DNA from: Chytriomyces cf. hyalinus JEL632
Lineage: Eukaryota > Chytridiomycota > Chytridiomycetes > Chytridiales > Chytriomycetaceae
Assembly: GCA_025435555.1 (NCBI GenBank)
Contig: JAIWWG010000004.1
Location: forward strand, 1 to 64,000
Length of the DNA: 64,000 bases
Direction of reading: 5' to 3'
The position numbers were made by a program, and so were the translations under genes. Below, piece after piece: positions 6,643 through 49,774 of this stretch. How positions within the stretch are numbered: the stretch's first letter is position 1; each line of letters starts with the position of its first letter. The notes beneath the pieces were generated by a model that worked only from the letters and a program-made list of their open reading frames with translations, had not been told where the DNA came from and made no database searches.

Positions 6643-6690
6643 GTGAGTCTCAGCTGTTGTTGATATAAATACAGCGCTAACATCTTCCAG
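6643..6690 (+). other. Probable 5' leader intron of the first B12D-like gene
   Basis: A consensus donor (CAAG|GTGAGT) and an acceptor (TCTTCCAG) bound 48 bases. If spliced, an upstream ATG at 6633 reads in frame into the downstream ATG at 6750 and adds about 23 residues rich in Lys, Gln and Pro. Otherwise this is a leader intron. The second gene copy shows no such intron before its ATG. Confidence 0.5.
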
Positions 6691-6749
6691 ACGAACCCAT
6701 CCCCAAACGTGCTCAACTTGCTCAACTAAAGCTTCCAAAAACACAAGCA

Positions 6750-6974
6750 ATGCGTTCCATGACTATTCCCGCTGAAGTGTACCCAATCATTGGCATGATG
6801 TCCGTCGCCTTCGGATTCGGCACATACGTAGTCCACAAGCAGCTTACTGCTGGCCAGGATTTGCGGCTAGGCAGTCGCGGTTACAACCCAGAACACTGGC
6901 AAACTCGCTTGAATCGGGAGCCGGACGTGAAACAGCCTTTTGGAAACTACTTCTACCGACACTGCAAAGATTGA
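6750..6974 (+). CDS. B12D / NDUFA4-like small mitochondrial protein, copy 1
   Basis: A 74-residue protein with one hydrophobic helix (YPIIGMMSVAFGFGTYVVHK) near the N-terminus and a polar C-terminal part ending YFYRHCKD. This layout fits the B12D/NDUFA4 (MLRQ) family of small inner-membrane proteins associated with respiratory complexes. A near-identical paralogue lies about 630 bases downstream in the same orientation. The start at 6750 matches the paralogue; a longer form using the upstream ATG at 6633 and the leader intron is possible. Confidence 0.82.
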   Translation: MRSMTIPAEVYPIIGMMSVAFGFGTYVVHKQLTAGQDLRLGSRGYNPEHWQTRLNREPDVKQPFGNYFYRHCKD

Positions 6975-7603
6975 ACAATGGCACCAGTTCCTTCTTGTTC
7001 TTATTTATTTACATTCTGTTCAACTTTCCATAAACTTCAAATGTTTGCAATAAACCAACTTACCTACCGATACTTTCACTCACCAACCTTTTTGGGCTTC
7101 TTGGCGCGTTAAATCCCATCTGCCAGAGTTGCAATTTCTACATGTCTGGAGGGTATCAGACATCGTTAAAGTCTCTCTTTCGAAAATCTGCCAGGACATG
7201 AGCCGGGGGTAGCGAAGGTGTGCATCTTGACATTCAACGTGTCTGCATCGGCATTGCGGCACAAGAGATTGAGGATTCCCAGTATTAACGCGACTCAGTC
7301 CATTTCAGCAGCCGATAATACCACTAACGATGCTGGAATATCGACTTCTGATGGAAGACAGGGGTGATGGCTGCGTGTGTTGGATTGACTCAAACTCGCG
7401 TCATTTTGTCCGGTAAAAATAAAATTTAAATTTTTTGCTGTCACACCCTGACTCACAGTTTGCACTTGTTACCAGTGACACCGCATGAACAACCGTGACT
7501 CCAAACACGGCCAAAGCCAAGCTCATCCATAAAAAGCAGCCAAAGACATCAGTCCCAAAACATAACACAAAACACACAACCAAACAACCCAACAGCAAAA
7601 ACA
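6975..7603 (+). other. Intergenic region between the two B12D-like copies
   Basis: About 630 bases with no ORF that looks coding on either strand, only short chance frames. It presumably holds the terminator of copy 1 and the promoter of copy 2. No repeat that would mark the duplication boundary was seen by eye. Confidence 0.5.
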
Positions 7604-7828
7604 ATGCGTTCCATGGCTATTCCCGCTGAAGTGTACCCAATCATTGGCATGATGTCTGTCGCCTTTGGCTTCGGCACATACGTAATCCACAAGCAGCTTA
7701 CTGCTGGCCAGGACTTACGGCTCGGTAGCCGCGGATACAACCCAGAACATTGGCAAAGTCGCTTGAACCGGGAACCTGAAGTCAAGAAACCGTTCGTCAA
7801 CTACTTCTACCGTCACTGCAAGGATTAA
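7604..7828 (+). CDS. B12D / NDUFA4-like small mitochondrial protein, copy 2
   Basis: A 74-residue paralogue of the gene at 6750. It differs at only about eight positions (T/A at residue 5, V/I in the helix, and several near the end: QTR/QSR, PDVKQPFGN/PEVKKPFVN). Both copies keep the hydrophobic helix and the YFYRHCKD terminus. Third-base changes are scattered while the protein is conserved, which suggests a duplication kept by purifying selection. Confidence 0.82.
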   Translation: MRSMAIPAEVYPIIGMMSVAFGFGTYVIHKQLTAGQDLRLGSRGYNPEHWQSRLNREPEVKKPFVNYFYRHCKD

Positions 7829-7987: not shown

Positions 7988-10900
7988 TCACCACCTTCGA
8001 CCATAAAAACCACTTTTTCGCAACTCATCCATACTTTTTACAGGAACCCCGCACCTCAAACATTCCTCCAAAACTTCATCGTCTTCACTCAAAACCCAAA
8101 CACTCGCATCACTTTCCACCAACTCCACACCCAGCTCTTTCATCTCCTCAACTCGTGCCTGCTCCGCTGCCCGAGATTTCTGGATCGTGTGCACGGCACT
8201 GCCCATAAAACTGCGCAAATGCCGGGGTGGCTGCACCCCGTCTTCTGGGCTCTTGAATTCCTCCAAATACGACACGTCCTTCACAGCTTCTCCCGCCTGT
8301 TGCGCAACGAGTCGTTGCACACCGTCGGCTTGGTATCGGAACCGCTGTTCAAGGTATCGTGTTGCTTCTCTTGCCCGTGCGTTGATACCGCCGTTGCCCT
8401 TTTTCAAAACATCCAGCTGGTGGATTACATCCATGGGAACAAGGACTCGACATTGTGATGACGGCATGAGGAGAGTTTTGATGAGGTTTAAATGTGATGT
8501 GTAGATGGAGGCGTCTGGAATATATGTGGGGAGAGATGCTGGGTTCGCGCGGGTGAGTGTGGATTCGAGAGTCGAGATTTGTGTTTTGAGGAGCTGCAGA
8601 GCGAGTGTTTTTGCAGTCTTGATACGAGCCAATCGCTGCATTAAACGAAAAAAACGGCAAGGTTGAGCATTTGTTTTCTGAAACCCCCCAAAAAATAAAA
8701 ACTCACCTTTGATTCTTCATCACGGACAATGAAGCCAGCTTCACTGCCGTTCGATCGTCGATCTTCATACGCAAACAAATCAAAGTCTTTCTTTTCGCTC
8801 ATTTTCCGAGCGAGGACCAACACACGGCTGGCTCGCGCCATAAATACTGTGTCGGAAAATGATGCGTTTACACTCATCTCCGGTTCGGGGTGGACATTAT
8901 CCAAAACCGACTGCAACCCGCGCACTTCGAGGGTCGAACAGTAAAAGGTTTTCAATGGAGCAAACCCGAGGAGAGGGATATCTTCGTTTAGAGTTCGGGA
9001 ATCGCCATCCGTATCTGCGAATGATAACAGTGTCGTGGATAGGGATGCTAGCGACCTGCAAAACCTCGGAAGACCCTGGTGGGAATCAAGGAAAAGTAAG
9101 TCGACCAGAAGCACACACACCAAACGAATGTGCACCTAAAAAAAATAAAAAAAATAAAGAGCAGCAGCAGCTTCGAACGCCTAATATTCACCTCATGTTG
9201 CTCCTTCATCACATCTGATACTCCCGCACCAGTGGTATACTTGGAAAAAAGAATGAAAACGTCCGTTGCAACCGCAGAACTCGCAGCTTTTTGCAACCCA
9301 TTTTCGTTTCCAGAATTGCGCTGATTCTCATGTGACGGTGCAGTCATGCTCGATTCCCCAAGATGCCCTGATAACCAACAGCAAAGAACACCCATGGGTG
9401 CAAACAACATGGCCGCATGATCTGGCACGGAATCCACTGTCACATTCGCCCGCGTCATGTGCAGCTGCAGTCGTCCCAAACAGGAATCCGCAATTTGAAA
9501 TAGCGTGGAAAGGATGATGCATTGGATATCTCGAATCTTTTGACGCACAATTGGAGTTTTGTCTGACCAAAAAAAAAAAAAAAATGGAAAGGCTGGTTGT
9601 GAGCTTAAGGTCCAAAAATGCGCCCACTAACACTTTGGAAAATGCGCTCACCTTTCTCCAAAAACATTGCGCCCAGTTCAGAAAAAGCAGAAATGAGAAT
9701 CGCACACGTTTTCGAAACCACATCGATTGCAGATTGAGTGACCGCCGCACTATCCCTATCTGAATGCACGTCATCCACAGCTTCATCTTCTGTTGATGTC
9801 CCGTTGACGAAAAAGTCGAAAATTTCGCAAATTTTTTTCTGATTTGCAATCGCTTCGGTATGTGTGTCTGATGTCCAGCTGACAAGGCGAGAATCGGTGG
9901 GATGAAACAGGTATCTTCCGTGGAAATAAATCACGGCGTTCGTGAGCGTGTCTAAATTTGACCTTTTTTTTTTTTTTGGTCGTCACAAATTGTGGATCAG
10001 TTAAATTGAGAGTGGACTTCAGAAGGACTGTATACCTTCTGGGATCCAATGCCAGGTCTGGTTTAGGTATCCGCCTCATTTCGTTCTTGTAAAATAAATT
10101 TAAATTGCCCTTGGCAATGGGTGGAGGATTTGAACTTGACAAACTGAAACAACAATCATGAGCTAGTCAGTTGCCAGTAAACGACAGGCGTTCATGTCAT
10201 ACCTCAAGCAATACCAATAAAGAACGTTAAAATGCTGCTTGCATGCTGTTGCCACAATTGCCAACTGGCAAAGCGGCTTCCCTGATAATCAAATAGGTTT
10301 AAGATATAATGCTCATGATATTTTGCAGTTGCGATGACTGTAACCACCTTGATTGGGATCTATTCGAATGGCGTGTTCGTACACAGAATGAACGTTCGTC
10401 CATGTTTCCTCCGTTTTCGAGGAGCGATTGTATGTTGCTCGATATCGCTCTGCAGGTATCAATCTTTAGAGATAGAAATAGGAGAGATATCGAGTATGGT
10501 ACCCAAGTCTCCTAGATACAGCATGCTCCGGTACAAGACTCTTTGAATCAGCTTTGCCCTCTCTTCGTCCACTGGGCTCCACGAATCCAGAAGGCGCCGT
10601 TCCGAATCTTCTGGTATTGATAGATACAAGGCAGACGTCATAGCGGGAATTCGAAATGATTTGGAGCAGCAGATGGAGACATTTTGAATCAACGTCCTGT
10701 AGAAGGAAGTGGCTGTCGACAGAAAGGCGAGCAAGTTTTTCGACGCTGTTTGCAAAGAGGGGTCGAGCTGTTGCTGCGTCTGCGCATGATTTGTTTTAAT
10801 GAGATGCGGCGGAAGGGGGACGAAGGGTGTCGAATATTTTGACACGCACCCGAACAGCAGCCCTCAGCTCCTCAATCTTGCGGTGAAACACGGAAGTCCA

Positions 10901-25205: not shown

Positions 25206-25871
25206 TCAGCCTCCTTTCACGGGAAGAACGCCGCCCATTCCAAACACTTCAAAATACGCGTCCAACTTGCCATGCACTTTTTCACCCGGTCCTTTCACGG
25301 CGTAAAAAAACCAACAGTTTCTATCCATAAACTCATCAAGCTTCTTTTCCAATCCCGGCACTTGACTTTCTTCGCTTCCCACGAGTTCCACTTCTCCAAA
25401 AACTCCAATCGGGGTGGTATCAATCATAATATTGAACTCCTTGTCCACGAGATACTCGGAACGATGTGTCGTGATATCACACAAGACGTCCAAGCCAAAA
25501 TTATTCTCTTCATTACAAGAAGGTGGTAACGGGTCTAACACCGACTCGATGTGAAACTTGATGTTTCGAGGATTAAAAACTTCGGCAAATGATGCGTTTT
25601 GGTACTTTTCCTCGCCGCCGCCTTTCAAGTTCATTTTCAGGTTCCAGTTTTCGTTTCGTTTGCGCAACCAGAATCCGTTCTTGGCAAGCGGCCATGCTGG
25701 GGCGCGGTCGTAGTATGTGTCCCGGATTTTGAACGTTTTGCCGTGTTCGACCGAGTTGAAGCGAGGATTGACGTTGGGTTGTGGCGTTATCAGAGCTCTT
25801 GCAATCAGGGATGGAAGGGCTGCGAATTTGCGTTCCACTTCAAACATTCGGGGGGTGTTTAGTTTTTTCAT
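25206..25871 (-). CDS. THTPA: Thiamine-triphosphatase (CYTH family)
   Basis: An intronless gene of about 221 residues from MKKLNTPRMFEVERKF; the start could also be the ATG at 25847 (MFEVERKF) or 25901. The EVERKF motif opens the triphosphate tunnel fold. RDTYYDRAP, GFWLRKRNENWNLKMN and EVELVGSEESQVP follow with the charged residues that bind triphosphate and metal. Length and pattern match mammalian-type soluble ThTPase (about 230 residues), which hydrolyses thiamine triphosphate. The end FYAVKGPGEKVHGKLDAYF is family-like. It is divergent from the viperin-like gene, with about 90 bases between start codons. An AATATATT element near 25930 could serve it as TATA. Confidence 0.85.
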   Translation of the reverse strand: MKKLNTPRMFEVERKFAALPSLIARALITPQPNVNPRFNSVEHGKTFKIRDTYYDRAPAWPLAKNGFWLRKRNENWNLKMNLKGGGEEKYQNASFAEVFNPRNIKFHIESVLDPLPPSCNEENNFGLDVLCDITTHRSEYLVDKEFNIMIDTTPIGVFGEVELVGSEESQVPGLEKKLDEFMDRNCWFFYAVKGPGEKVHGKLDAYFEVFGMGGVLPVKGG

Positions 25872-25957
25872 TAGGAAGATTTCAAAACCACACGCTTGCA
25901 CTTTGAAGGGGAAACACCCAAAGAAGTGGGGAATATATTTGCTTCATTAAACATACG

Positions 25958-27001
25958 ATGGAATCTATATTTGTGCGAACGACCGTGATCCTCATTACCG
26001 CGTCCTTGCTGGTCAGGCTGCTGGTGCATCGTTGGACCCTCAACGCGTCGGCACAGGACAAATGCCCCGTCCCAGTCTCCGTCAACTTTCACTTTACGCG
26101 CAAATGCAACTATGAGTGCGGGTTCTGCTTCCACACAGCCACAGACTCGTACGTGGCGCCATTGCAAGACGCACAAAGAGCTCTCGCTCTGTTGAAGGAA
26201 GCCGGCATGAAGAAAATCAACTTTGCCGGCGGAGAGCCGTTCCTGTATCCAAAGCATTTGGCCAGTTTGCTGCGTTTCTGTAAACAGGATTTGCAACTGG
26301 AGTCTGTATCGATAGTTTCGAATGGATCCAAGATCCGAACCTCCTTCCTACGAGAGAATGCTGCTTGGATCGACATTCTCGCCGTGTCGTGCGATTCCTT
26401 TAACGAAGAAACCAACTTGAAAATCGGACGCGGTGTTGGACTCAGCCATGTGTCGCAACTAAAGAGCATCGCCACTGCCTGTCGCGACCTTGGCATCTTG
26501 TTCAAGATCAACTCGGTCGTGTGTCAGTACAATGTCCACGAAGATTTGAGTGATGAGATTATTCAGATTGCGCCGTTCCGTTGGAAGGTGTTTCAAGTGC
26601 TTGCTGTGGAGGGCGAGAACACGGATGCTGCTTCCTCGACGGGCCCTGACCGGGATGAACCGAAACCAAAGCTATTGCGGAACGTTGAACCTTTCCTGAT
26701 CTCGTCTGCGGAATTTGATGAATTCTGTCAACGGCATAAGCACGTGCCCAGCATTGTCCCCGAGCCGAATCATTTGATGAAAGCGTCCTACCTCCTCATG
26801 GACGAACACTTGCGATTCCTGCCACGAGGGTCAAACAACAACACGCCCACCGGTTCGATCCTTGAGGTGGGCGTGAAAGAAGCGTTGTTACACGCTGGAT
26901 GGGATGAGCAGAGTTTCCGTGAGCGTGGTGGGGTGTATGAGTGGACGAAGCCGCTTGATTTGGGCTGCGCTGCTAAAGGGGCATCTGAACTGGAGTGGTG
27001 A
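25958..27001 (+). CDS. RSAD2: Viperin-like radical SAM enzyme
   Basis: An intronless gene of 347 residues. A membrane helix near the N-terminus (residues about 8-24, TVILITASLLVRLLV) matches the amphipathic ER/lipid-droplet anchor of viperin. The radical SAM CX3CX2C motif is at Cys50, Cys54 and Cys57 (TRKCNYECGFCFHTA), followed by KINFAGGEPFLYP, SIVSNGSKIR, ILAVSCDSFNEE, FKINSVV, RWKVFQVLAVEGEN and SYLLMDEHLRFL. The C-terminus ends in Leu-Glu-Trp, close to the essential C-terminal Trp of viperins. Viperin converts CTP to ddhCTP, an antiviral chain terminator, and counterparts exist in some fungi and in prokaryotic antiphage systems. The assignment is strong; the role in this organism is inferred. 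Confidence 0.92.
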   Translation: MESIFVRTTVILITASLLVRLLVHRWTLNASAQDKCPVPVSVNFHFTRKCNYECGFCFHTATDSYVAPLQDAQRALALLKEAGMKKINFAGGEPFLYPKHLASLLRFCKQDLQLESVSIVSNGSKIRTSFLRENAAWIDILAVSCDSFNEETNLKIGRGVGLSHVSQLKSIATACRDLGILFKINSVVCQYNVHEDLSDEIIQIAPFRWKVFQVLAVEGENTDAASSTGPDRDEPKPKLLRNVEPFLISSAEFDEFCQRHKHVPSIVPEPNHLMKASYLLMDEHLRFLPRGSNNNTPTGSILEVGVKEALLHAGWDEQSFRERGGVYEWTKPLDLGCAAKGASELEW

Positions 27002-27507: not shown

Positions 27508-29105
27508 TCAGGCAATTGGCTCAACGCGAATCTGTGAGTACTTGGCAGCCTGGGACTGACCACCGATGGCAGAGTTGCACTTGCCGTTGCCGAAACCGCC
27601 GTCCAACCAGTCCATGCCACCCTCCCAGAAGGACAAGATCAGAGTCATACCGTCAGCCTGGCCAACACCCATCTGTGGAACACCGCCCCACTGAGTCGTG
27701 CAGGATCCTCCGTTAACGTCTCCAGTCTGGTAGTACTTTCCGTCCTGCTCAAAGATTTGCACGATGCTCTTGAGTGCGCCGTTGTCAGAGTTGCCTTCAG
27801 TGTAGAACTTGGTGGTGATTTTGAATGGCTTCAAGGAGTTGATGTAGCTGTTGGGACCGACTTTGTCAGAGTACTTGGTGTTGCTGCCAGCGGAGCATCC
27901 GTCGTGGTTGCACTGGTTTCCGGCAACTTGTCCGCGGTTTCTGCATTCGTGGGTGGTGAACTGGGTTCCGGCAATGTTTCCTTCGAAGATATCCATTTCC
28001 ATGCAAGTGCCCTGTCCATCGCAGTACTCGGATCCAACGTTGGGGGGCATGGAACTGAAGTAGAGGGCAGAGTTTTGGCCACACTTGACTCCAGAAATGT
28101 CCACATTGAAGACAATCTGACGGTTGTTGAGGTTGAATTGCTTGTAGATGCTACCGTTGGGGTCCACAAGGTAGAATCGGCCGAGTCCCATGGACATATC
28201 ACCGGACTCTTGAACGGTGGCAGGGAAGTTCCAGGCTGGGCTCAAGAACGTGTTTCTCTTGTAGCAAGTCTTGGTTCTGTCACACTCAATGATGGGGAAC
28301 TTGGTAGCGCCTGGTGGTGGGGCACCCCATGCGGAGGTAATGGTCTGTCCGGGCTGAAAAACAAAGGGCAGCGTGGTGAGCAACACAAGTTATGGTCGAA
28401 TAGGAGTTGCAAGTTGTTTGCTTACCGACGATGGATCGGTGGTTTTTGGAGGGTCGTTTGAAGTTTGAGTTGGGCCAGTTCCAGCAACAGCACCGCAGAC
28501 AGCAGCTGTGATCAAAAAAGTGGGGAAAAAAATTTGATTAGGGTTTGAAACGAGTTATTTTCTTGTGAACGAATCTGCAACTCACAGTCTTTGGTCATAA
28601 CAAAGGCCTGGCCCTTGCTGACACTGCCGCCCTTCATCCAGCAGGTTCCGCCGTTGGCGCTTGTCCAGGTGAAGTGGGTGCATCCAGAAGTGGTAGCGCA
28701 CTTGGAGCCGCACTGCTCGCCGCTGACCTGAGCGTTTGCAATGTCCCCGCCAGTCCAGTCACAGTTGAGGGCCCAGTAGCCGCCATCAGCAGCGTTGTTC
28801 CAGTTGATGCCTCCACTGCCAGAGTCAGATTTGGAGTAGCCACAGACAGCCCCGTCGCTGTTCTTGGCAACGGCTTGCGAAGCGGTGACGGAACCGGTCT
28901 TCATCCAGCAAGTTCCACCATTGGCGTTTGTCCAGGTGAAGTGGGTGCATCCAGAAGTGGTAGCGCACTTGGAGCCACACTGGTCGCCAGAGACCTTAGC
29001 GTTGGACAGATCCCCGCCGACCCAGTCGCAGTTGAGGGCCCAGGCACCGCCGCCGGACACTTGGTTCCAGGCAATGTCTCTTGGGATCATGAGTGAAGGA
29101 GCCAT
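27508..29105 (-). CDS. Apple/PAN-like repeats fused to a clan GH-B-like (GH7-type) domain
   Basis: Exons 29105-28586, 28505-28426 and 28353-27508 give 481 residues. Two repeats of about 75 residues open the protein (WALNCDWVGGDLSNAKVSG then QCGSKCATTSGCTHFTW and GTCWMKTGSV; copy two WALNCDWTGGDIANAQVSG). They resemble Apple/PAN modules that bind carbohydrate. A Pro/Thr linker leads to a catalytic-type domain with GTCMEMDIFEGN, the E-x-D-x-x-E pattern of GH7/GH16 nucleophile and acid/base, then QFTTHECRNRG, CNHDGCSAG and LILSFWEGGMDWLDGG. This points to a beta-glucan or cellulose hydrolase. No hydrophobic signal peptide follows the ATG (MAPSLMIPRDIAWNQV), which is odd for such an enzyme. A TATA box (29183-29176) lies about 72 bases upstream. 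Confidence 0.7.
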
Positions 29106-48286: not shown

Positions 48287-49774
48287 ATGCTTTTACTGCT
48301 TGCACTTGCATCCCAAGCCACCGCCCACGGCTTCATGAACTGGCCCATCACCCGCATTCTGCCTGGAGACCAGCAAAACGGCTACTCCTTCTCCAGAACC
48401 GCCGCGAACCGCAACAACGATGTTCACCCAAGTTCGGACATCAACTGCTCATATCTGCCCCAAGGACCTGTATTCACGCAAACCATGGCGCCCGGCCCTG
48501 CTACAGTCGATTACACCATCACCGCCCACCACAATGGTGGATGCATCGTCTATATTTCGACCGACAACCAAAACACTTGGAAACAAATCGGACAAGACCC
48601 CACCTGCGGCATTCAATCGCAGAACCCTACCGGTCGTGGCTCTGTTCCTGTAACGATTCCAGATGGCACGTATTCGGCAGTTTTGCGTTGGAACTGGGTC
48701 GCCGACAATGGTGGTGCGCCGAATGAAATTTACAACCAGTGTGCCGATATTCAAGTTTCCCCTTCTGGAAGCAACACTCACACCAAAGTGGAGATGATGG
48801 GTGGAAGCGTTGGCGCTGGGTTCACGGCACTTCCTCGCGGGTCTACTTATAATTCGGGTTGCTCGCAAGTTGGGGCCTTGAAGTGTGTCGAAAGCAGCAA
48901 AGATTTCATCAACCAGTGTGTGTCGCTTCCTGCGGGTGGAGGCTTCAATGGTGGTATCAACTGGTACCAATATCAGTGCCCCAACGGTTCGTCTTGTCAA
49001 GGTGACAAGTGTGTCGGTGCAGATGGTTCTTCTCCCGCACCTGCACCAGCTCCTGCTCCTGCTCCCGCCCCAGCACCAGCCCCGCAACCTCAACCCGAAG
49101 ACCCAACACCACCTGCTACTTCCGCCCAGGCGCCTCAACCGACGGTTGCCCCACAACCCCCAACTACTGGTGCCGGATGCGCAACCCCAGCTGCCTTGGA
49201 GCTTCCCATCCCTGCTGGTTCCACCTGCTCAGACGTCAAGAAAGCGTGCCAGTCCTTTTGTCTCGGAAGCCAACTGTACAATGTCGAGCGAAACCAATGT
49301 TACGGTGAAACTGCCGGGAAAGCTATGCAGTGGTGCCAATGCAACGGCGTTACATACTACAATGTTGCGTCTGGAAAGCCAACCACACAGTGTCCAACTT
49401 CAGGGGATGCACCTGCACCTGTTCCTGCGCCGCAACCACCTGTCCCAGCTCCCGTCCCAGCTCCTCAACCACCACCCGTTCAAGACTCACCTGCTCCACA
49501 ACCGCCCGCACAAACTGCCGATGCAACCACCACCACCGCCGCTGCTCCCCAGCAACCCGCCCCAACTGTCCAACCTTCCCCACCAACATCCGGCACAGTC
49601 ACTCTCGGCACGGCATGCACACCTGGCGCGTTCGCTTGTGGAGCACGCGACACGGCAAAGAACCAAGACACGGTTGCAGTTTGTAGCACCGAAGGATCCT
49701 ACGTGTTGCTGGCCAACTGTGATCACGGCTCATTTTCATGCCAGTTGATTGGCGGAGTTCCATTCTGCATGTAA
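48287..49774 (+). CDS. Secreted LPMO-like enzyme with C-terminal Cys-rich modules, copy 2
   Basis: A single exon of 495 residues, a paralogue of the gene at 23596. The signal peptide MLLLLALASQATA is cut before HGFMNWPITR, exposing the N-terminal His. The core keeps TITAHHNGGC and LRWNWVADNGGAPNEIYNQCADI. The Cys-rich module (STCSDVKKACQSFCLGSQ) follows a linker made of Pro-Ala repeats (about 49030-49085). The terminal module is shorter and diverged (ACTPGAFACG, CSTEGSYVLLANC, FSCQLIGGVPFCM). Long stretches match copy 1 almost base for base, for example around the LRWNW region, which suggests recent duplication or conversion. The in-frame ATG at 48125 is too far upstream. Confidence 0.82.
   Translation: MLLLLALASQATAHGFMNWPITRILPGDQQNGYSFSRTAANRNNDVHPSSDINCSYLPQGPVFTQTMAPGPATVDYTITAHHNGGCIVYISTDNQNTWKQIGQDPTCGIQSQNPTGRGSVPVTIPDGTYSAVLRWNWVADNGGAPNEIYNQCADIQVSPSGSNTHTKVEMMGGSVGAGFTALPRGSTYNSGCSQVGALKCVESSKDFINQCVSLPAGGGFNGGINWYQYQCPNGSSCQGDKCVGADGSSPAPAPAPAPAPAPAPAPQPQPEDPTPPATSAQAPQPTVAPQPPTTGAGCATPAALELPIPAGSTCSDVKKACQSFCLGSQLYNVERNQCYGETAGKAMQWCQCNGVTYYNVASGKPTTQCPTSGDAPAPVPAPQPPVPAPVPAPQPPPVQDSPAPQPPAQTADATTTTAAAPQQPAPTVQPSPPTSGTVTLGTACTPGAFACGARDTAKNQDTVAVCSTEGSYVLLANCDHGSFSCQLIGGVPFCM

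Follow-up and report, generated by a model that had tools for sequence, protein, structure and literature searches.

A eukaryotic viperin gene head to head with a CYTH-domain triphosphatase gene in a zoosporic fungus

Two genes for enzymes of triphosphate chemistry, a viperin-like radical SAM protein and a CYTH-domain triphosphatase, lie head to head in Chytriomyces cf. hyalinus JEL632. Is this a functional pair, in which one enzyme would act on the product of the other, or do the two genes merely share an address? A preliminary description of the locus offered both options: control of modified triphosphates, or simple chance. The stretch of DNA analysed here, called the window, is 64,000 nucleotides long; it lies on a contig (C177) of a 37.8 Mb genome in 242 contigs, which was searched in addition. 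The relevant features are:

25206–25871, minus strand: CYTH-domain triphosphatase resembling THTPA, 221 amino acids from the upstream ATG at 25871
25872–25957, no strand: stretch between both start codons, a possible shared promoter region of 86 bp
25958–27001, plus strand: viperin (radical-SAM nucleotide dehydratase), 347 amino acids, an uninterrupted frame from ATG to stop

The answer that we favour, with good confidence, is that the two genes are ordinary and function independently of each other: one encodes a eukaryotic viperin inherited vertically, and the other is a THTPA-type CYTH gene that became its neighbour by chance. The zoosporic fungal host proposed in the preliminary description agrees with the genome, where a protein of the axonemal RIB43A family is encoded outside the window (E=1.3e-33; none of 14 prokaryotic controls matches), and with the saccharopine dehydrogenase and GH7 genes of the window itself.

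Family, fold and active site of the viperin

The viperin protein scores 238.9 bits against the NCBIfam model NF038283 (viperin_w_prok), above the cut-off of 180. Against TIGR04278 it reaches 367.7 bits (E=5.2e-110), under a cut-off of 450 that is of the kind 'exception', stricter, and names one subgroup; we did not take it as defining the viperin enzyme family. Matches to Radical_SAM of Pfam (E=1.2e-13) and to pVip of PADLOC (E=6.6e-66) complete the assignment. The nearest relatives in the PDB are the viperins of Trichoderma virens (6b4c, E=5.5e-101), mouse (5vsl, E=3.6e-96) and Nematostella, to which the protein is 56.7% (165/291 columns), 53.3% (152/285) and 49.1% (140/285) identical, respectively. 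AlphaFold, given the window protein together with 20 prokaryotic relatives, produced a model with a mean pLDDT of 83.6. In Foldseek this model is closest to the T. virens viperin-like enzyme in complex with CTP and SAM (E=1e-39), with a TM-score of 0.95 when normalised to the target and 0.77 when normalised to the query length. The family matches of both the viperin and the CYTH protein are beyond chance. A protein search of the genome found a single viperin, the gene itself.

Several elements can be placed along the viperin frame:

25967–26023, plus strand: N-terminal hydrophobic helix, residues 4–22, a likely membrane anchor
26105–26128, plus strand: CX3CX2C iron-sulfur/SAM motif, with C50, C54 and C57 read from the sequence
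26636–26674, plus strand: 13-residue insertion, residues 227–239, shortly after the GEN motif in the alignment
26828–26863 (approximate), plus strand: C-terminal loop, with T298-G299 by residue mapping
26990–26998, plus strand: C-terminal LEW, which fits the CIA targeting tripeptide [LIM]-[DES]-[WF]

The cluster motif, C50-x3-C54-x2-C57, is present as previously described, and its three cysteines are invariant in three alignments, with the solved eukaryotic viperins and with prokaryotic sets. All six residues aligned with mouse K120, K220, N222, R245, K247 and R347, which from the Fenwick papers we take to be contacts of the nucleotide (triphosphate), are conserved. Together with the NF038283 score, the PDB relatives and the fold model, the motif bears out the initial reading as a viperin-like radical SAM enzyme: the gene is a well-preserved but ordinary eukaryotic viperin.

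Both termini also look as first described. At the N-terminus, the Kyte-Doolittle hydrophobicity peaks at 1.99 over residues 4–22, and a helix spans residues 2–33 of the model, so that a membrane helix is plausible and the anchor stands as a prediction. At the C-terminus, the terminal aromatic residue is the W of LEW. The tripeptide [LIM]-[DES]-[WF] recruits the cytosolic iron-sulfur targeting complex, and the terminal tryptophan of viperin is reported to be critical for cofactor maturation (PMC10623007). A profile search of the genome for CIA2 (PF01883) gave no match; it is uninformative, as the same type of search missed the CYTH gene of the window.

The protein departs in two ways from the three solved eukaryotic viperins in the alignment. 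The 13-residue insertion is missing from all of them, and in the model its region falls below pLDDT 50 at residues 225–233 and 235–237. We considered an unspliced intron and rejected it: the stretch, read through in the sequence, has no GT. In the C-terminal loop, presumably the P-loop that binds the γ-phosphate (Fenwick 2020), T298-G299 replaces the S-K of the solved enzymes. Loss of the lysine as a sign of altered chemistry was set aside, because this position varies among prokaryotic viperins in two alignments; we therefore read no change of chemistry into T-G. With T-G in the loop and the insertion present, substrate affinity could differ.

The closest characterised likeness is the T. virens enzyme (6b4c, 7n7i, 9dgw), which shares the fold, CX3CX2C, the CTP-site residues and LEW at 57% identity; it differs in having P-S-K-S where the window viperin has P-T-G-S, and in lacking the insertion after GEN. 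The Thielavia terrestris SAND (TtRSAD2), likened here by description, is likewise a fungal radical-SAM nucleotide dehydratase. Mouse viperin (RSAD2; 5vsl, 6q2p) has the C-terminal W and, at 53% identity, the six nucleotide-contact residues (6/6). The N-terminus of mammalian viperin is longer and amphipathic, whereas the window protein has a single hydrophobic helix; nor does a CMPK2-like kinase adjoin its gene. Prokaryotic viperins (pVips, NF038283) have the same catalytic core residues at 28–42% identity in two alignments, but the window viperin groups with eukaryotic sequences and has no linked nucleotide kinase.

A CYTH neighbour with a THTPA-type signature

The CYTH frame, which has a second in-frame ATG at 25847, matches PF01928 with 37.7 bits (E=2.4e-9), above the cut-off of 23.2. 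Its best match in the PDB is human THTPA, a weak one by phmmer (E=0.0011); a pairwise comparison with the human THTPA fragment gives 28% identity (45/161 columns, E=9e-9). A protein search, on which the copy number depends entirely, found one CYTH gene in the genome, the gene itself. Not even this copy was recovered when the genome was searched with the Pfam profile, and others can escape such a search.

The ExExK motif reads E11-V-E13-R-K15. Residues Y53, W68 and K79 align with Y39, W53 and K65 of human THTPA (counted along the 230-residue chain 3tvl), and the blocks RDTYYD, WLRxR and W-x-LK are common to both proteins; apart from these likenesses, the window protein is only 28% identical to its human counterpart and its host is a fungus. 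The catalytic dyad of THTPA consists of Tyr39 and Lys65, and Trp53, stacking on the thiazole ring, is the likely basis of its specificity for thiamine triphosphate (ThTP), which in the bovine enzyme is near-absolute (PMC8615392).

How unusual is this signature? From the 40 CYTH matches in viperin-bearing prokaryotic genomes we fetched 20 regions, one of which was misread, leaving 19 proteins. At the Trp53 column, W occurs in one of these (L198). At the Tyr39 column, Y occurs in 17 of the 19, so only the tryptophan discriminates; the Lys65 column is gapped or misaligned in the prokaryotic rows and was not counted. Class IV adenylyl cyclases are recognised by an N-terminal HF motif (PMC8233210). 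The CYTH protein of the window lacks it: its residues before E11 are MKKLNTPRMF, with no H. A single-sequence structure prediction reached a pLDDT of 27.6, too low to show the fold.

With W68 at the Trp53 position, ExExK and no HF motif, the name ThTPase given in the preliminary description is a good one as a prediction. An enzyme with this signature should prefer ThTP, and the animal-type thiamine-triphosphatase signature in a fungus is the less expected part of the locus. A 2021 review treats ThTPase as metazoan and the fungal TTM activity as RNA triphosphatase (PMC8615392); unlike that picture, the CYTH gene of the window suggests that thiamine triphosphatases of the THTPA type may extend beyond animals.

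Spacing, kinases and viperin neighbourhoods elsewhere

The two genes diverge with 86 bp from ATG to ATG. As a control we took 23 pairs of head-to-head ORFs, 7 from the window and 16 from a stretch of 200 kb on contig C193 (249 kb). In this set the 86-bp gap is the second shortest after one of 66 bp, and these two are the only pairs at or below 100 bp (2/23). The control is rough: the ORF calls are crude and include exon fragments, and the 66-bp pair consists of ORFs, not of verified genes.

The viperin is flanked by the CYTH gene on one side and GH7 on the other, with no nucleotide kinase adjacent. Elsewhere in the genome, the thymidylate-kinase family is represented by a single plausible gene on C193 and by copies on C127, C106 and C150, and we saw no sign of a CMPK2-like partner among these family matches; a search of the genome with a cyanobacterial viperin-linked kinase gave no match and is uninformative. 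The copies on C127, C106 and C150 (L172, L173 and L175) are closely similar and lie on contigs of 12–20 kb, one of them with a stop inside the match, and other shared ORFs accompany them, a pattern suggestive of a gene that was duplicated or is carried by a mobile or repeated element.

For comparison, an alignment-based search for viperin relatives confirmed 190 prokaryotic loci, of which 80 were kept, and 74 viral loci. The alignment of eukaryotic viperins alone found no relatives in the genome contig collection; it was the broader alignment that found the prokaryotic and viral loci. In viral contigs, no relatives turned up with the viperin alone, with the eukaryotic viperin alignment or with the CYTH protein alone. 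Protein searches gave two records with weak radical-SAM matches in the phage collection and 19 records in the plasmid collection, 10 of which were opened. In four of these ten plasmid loci an annotated nucleoside or thymidylate kinase adjoins viperin; none has an annotated CYTH protein in its gene table, such tables being incomplete.

The 80 prokaryotic viperin loci form sets of 45 and 35, for which 44 and 35 genomes were searched; with G033 in both sets and locus L067 left out, this makes 78 distinct genomes. The profile search, which can miss copies, recognised no CYTH gene beside viperin at any of the 79 loci, out of 80, whose genomes were searched. CYTH matches do occur in 37 of the 78 genomes (40 matches in total), and 11 of the 40 could by their coordinates sit in the viperin locus, if on the same contig. 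Reading these 11 places in the viperin loci, two of which extend past the locus end, revealed no CYTH frame: ten contain stops, and the one in L020 is open but without ExExK. The other 29 matches were judged to lie outside the viperin loci on comparing coordinates by eye. The window CYTH protein had no phmmer match among the 5811 ORFs of the 80 loci, in a comparison that is weak for distant CYTH proteins. As evidence, this lack of CYTH genes at prokaryotic viperin loci carries no more than moderate weight, because the same profile search missed the CYTH gene of the window.

Origin, role and possible linkage

We built a tree with 97 rows, of which 4 are eukaryotic and 10 come from plasmids, the others being taken from prokaryotic genomes or viral contigs. 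A branch with SH-aLRT 100 separates the four eukaryotic rows, that of the window included, from all the others. The input of the tree was the 154 loci L018–L171, with a phmmer match in 141 and 84 passing the length and score filter; L019, a record identical to L008, was left out. The method was quick, with SH-aLRT as the measure of support and no bootstrap. This grouping, among the sequences available, agrees with the published tracing of viperin to the last eukaryotic common ancestor, with fungal and animal viperins in one clade (PMC10732462), and with the Asgard origin of eukaryotic viperins (PMC11291487). Viperin in that ancestor is thus already in print, and viperins from fungi have been described and characterised biochemically before: eukaryotic viperins are described as restricted to CTP or UTP (PMC11249213), and a fungal SAND converts both (PMC9642334). 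Among the papers listed by a literature search, judged by titles and the starts of abstracts, we found none that describes a chytrid viperin; the species set of PMC10732462 may include one.

By analogy with these relatives, the viperin would sit on a membrane through its N-terminal helix and, by way of LEW, have its [4Fe-4S] cluster supplied by the cytosolic machinery for iron-sulfur assembly. It would then cleave SAM to a 5′-deoxyadenosyl radical and dehydrate CTP, perhaps also UTP, to a ddh-nucleotide, a chain terminator for viral RNA polymerases. The CYTH protein, of the thiamine-triphosphatase type, would hydrolyse ThTP or another small triphosphate. An intact viperin from a flagellated fungus joins the Trichoderma virens and Thielavia terrestris enzymes named in the accessible literature, and it is a simple candidate for asking whether viperin restricts fungal viruses.

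Vertical inheritance and an antiviral role each have a competitor. The gene might have come recently from bacteria by horizontal transfer, as in some green algae: bacteria-to-alga transfers of viperin are published (PMC10732462), and cyanobacterial homologues reach 42% identity to the window protein. The 49–57% identity to the T. virens and animal enzymes, the common position of the eukaryotic rows (four only, at SH-aLRT 100) and the CIA-type tail all point the other way, and we hold such a transfer to be extremely unlikely. A role other than defence, such as the production of ddh-nucleoside natural products or metabolic control, is the other competitor. Synthesis of antiviral natural products has been put forward as a hypothesis for a fungal SAND (PMC9642334), and the viperin and mycovirus literature, at the level of titles and abstract starts, yielded no test of a fungal viperin. 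The residues, anchor and CIA tail, in turn, resemble those of the antiviral enzyme, and a partial check of the surroundings, 10 window ORFs scanned with Pfam, four of them without a match, brought up no biosynthetic-cluster gene; we regard a non-antiviral role as rather unlikely.

There remains the linkage itself. A bidirectional promoter might serve both genes, and the CYTH enzyme might trim or recycle ddhCTP (to ddhCDP), which would protect the host's own polymerases or reset the response. The short distance between the ATGs of a head-to-head pair makes co-regulation possible, the genome searches found one copy of either gene, and CYTH enzymes act on triphosphates, an archaeal member converting ATP and GTP to diphosphates (PMC8233210). 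On the other side, the W53 equivalent points to ThTP, and the viperin reaction as described, dehydration of CTP or UTP (PMC9642334), involves no thiamine compound. No such pairing was recognised in prokaryotes by a search that can miss copies, and another pair of ORFs, not verified as genes, is closer still at 66 bp. In the literature searched, we found no paper that brings viperin and thiamine triphosphatase together and none on control of viperin or of ddh-nucleotides by a triphosphatase. We consequently think a functional pair very unlikely, and just as improbable the wider proposal of a co-regulated viperin–THTPA-like pair in zoosporic fungi, with a tunnel triphosphatase setting the level or lifetime of ddh-nucleotides. 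Of the two options first offered for the locus, control of modified triphosphates thus gives way, in view of the Trp53 equivalent, the lack of a recognised prokaryotic CYTH pairing and the closer ORF pair, and simple chance is the better one.

Some observations lie beside this argument. All ten viral-contig proteins tested pass the NF038283 cut-off, and eight of these contigs (L099, L100, L103–L108) make up one separate starred clade in the quick tree that contains no bacterial rows. The viperin ORF of L107 (7935–8804) lies directly before, and slightly overlaps, an ORF (8786–10852) that matches the phage DNA polymerase family phrog_1252 (E=2.1e-153); helicase-family ORFs are present in the same locus. 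Because the viperin ORF of L107 adjoins a phage DNA polymerase ORF, some phages may, on the evidence of their gene order, encode a viperin of their own.

Within the window, the proteins with Pfam matches among the 10 scanned ORFs are a CBM19 protein, GH7, PAN, saccharopine dehydrogenase and an AA9-like protein. The last of these (48287–49774, plus strand) falls just below the Pfam cut-off, at 25.1 against 27.8 bits. The GH7 frame (27511–28386) and a frame with two PAN domains directly upstream on the same, minus, strand (28515–29102) are probably one spliced gene (27511–29102). Two small neighbouring ORFs on the plus strand (6681–6971 and 7499–7825) both contain IPAEVYPIIGMMSVAFGFGTYV and are apparently a tandem duplication.
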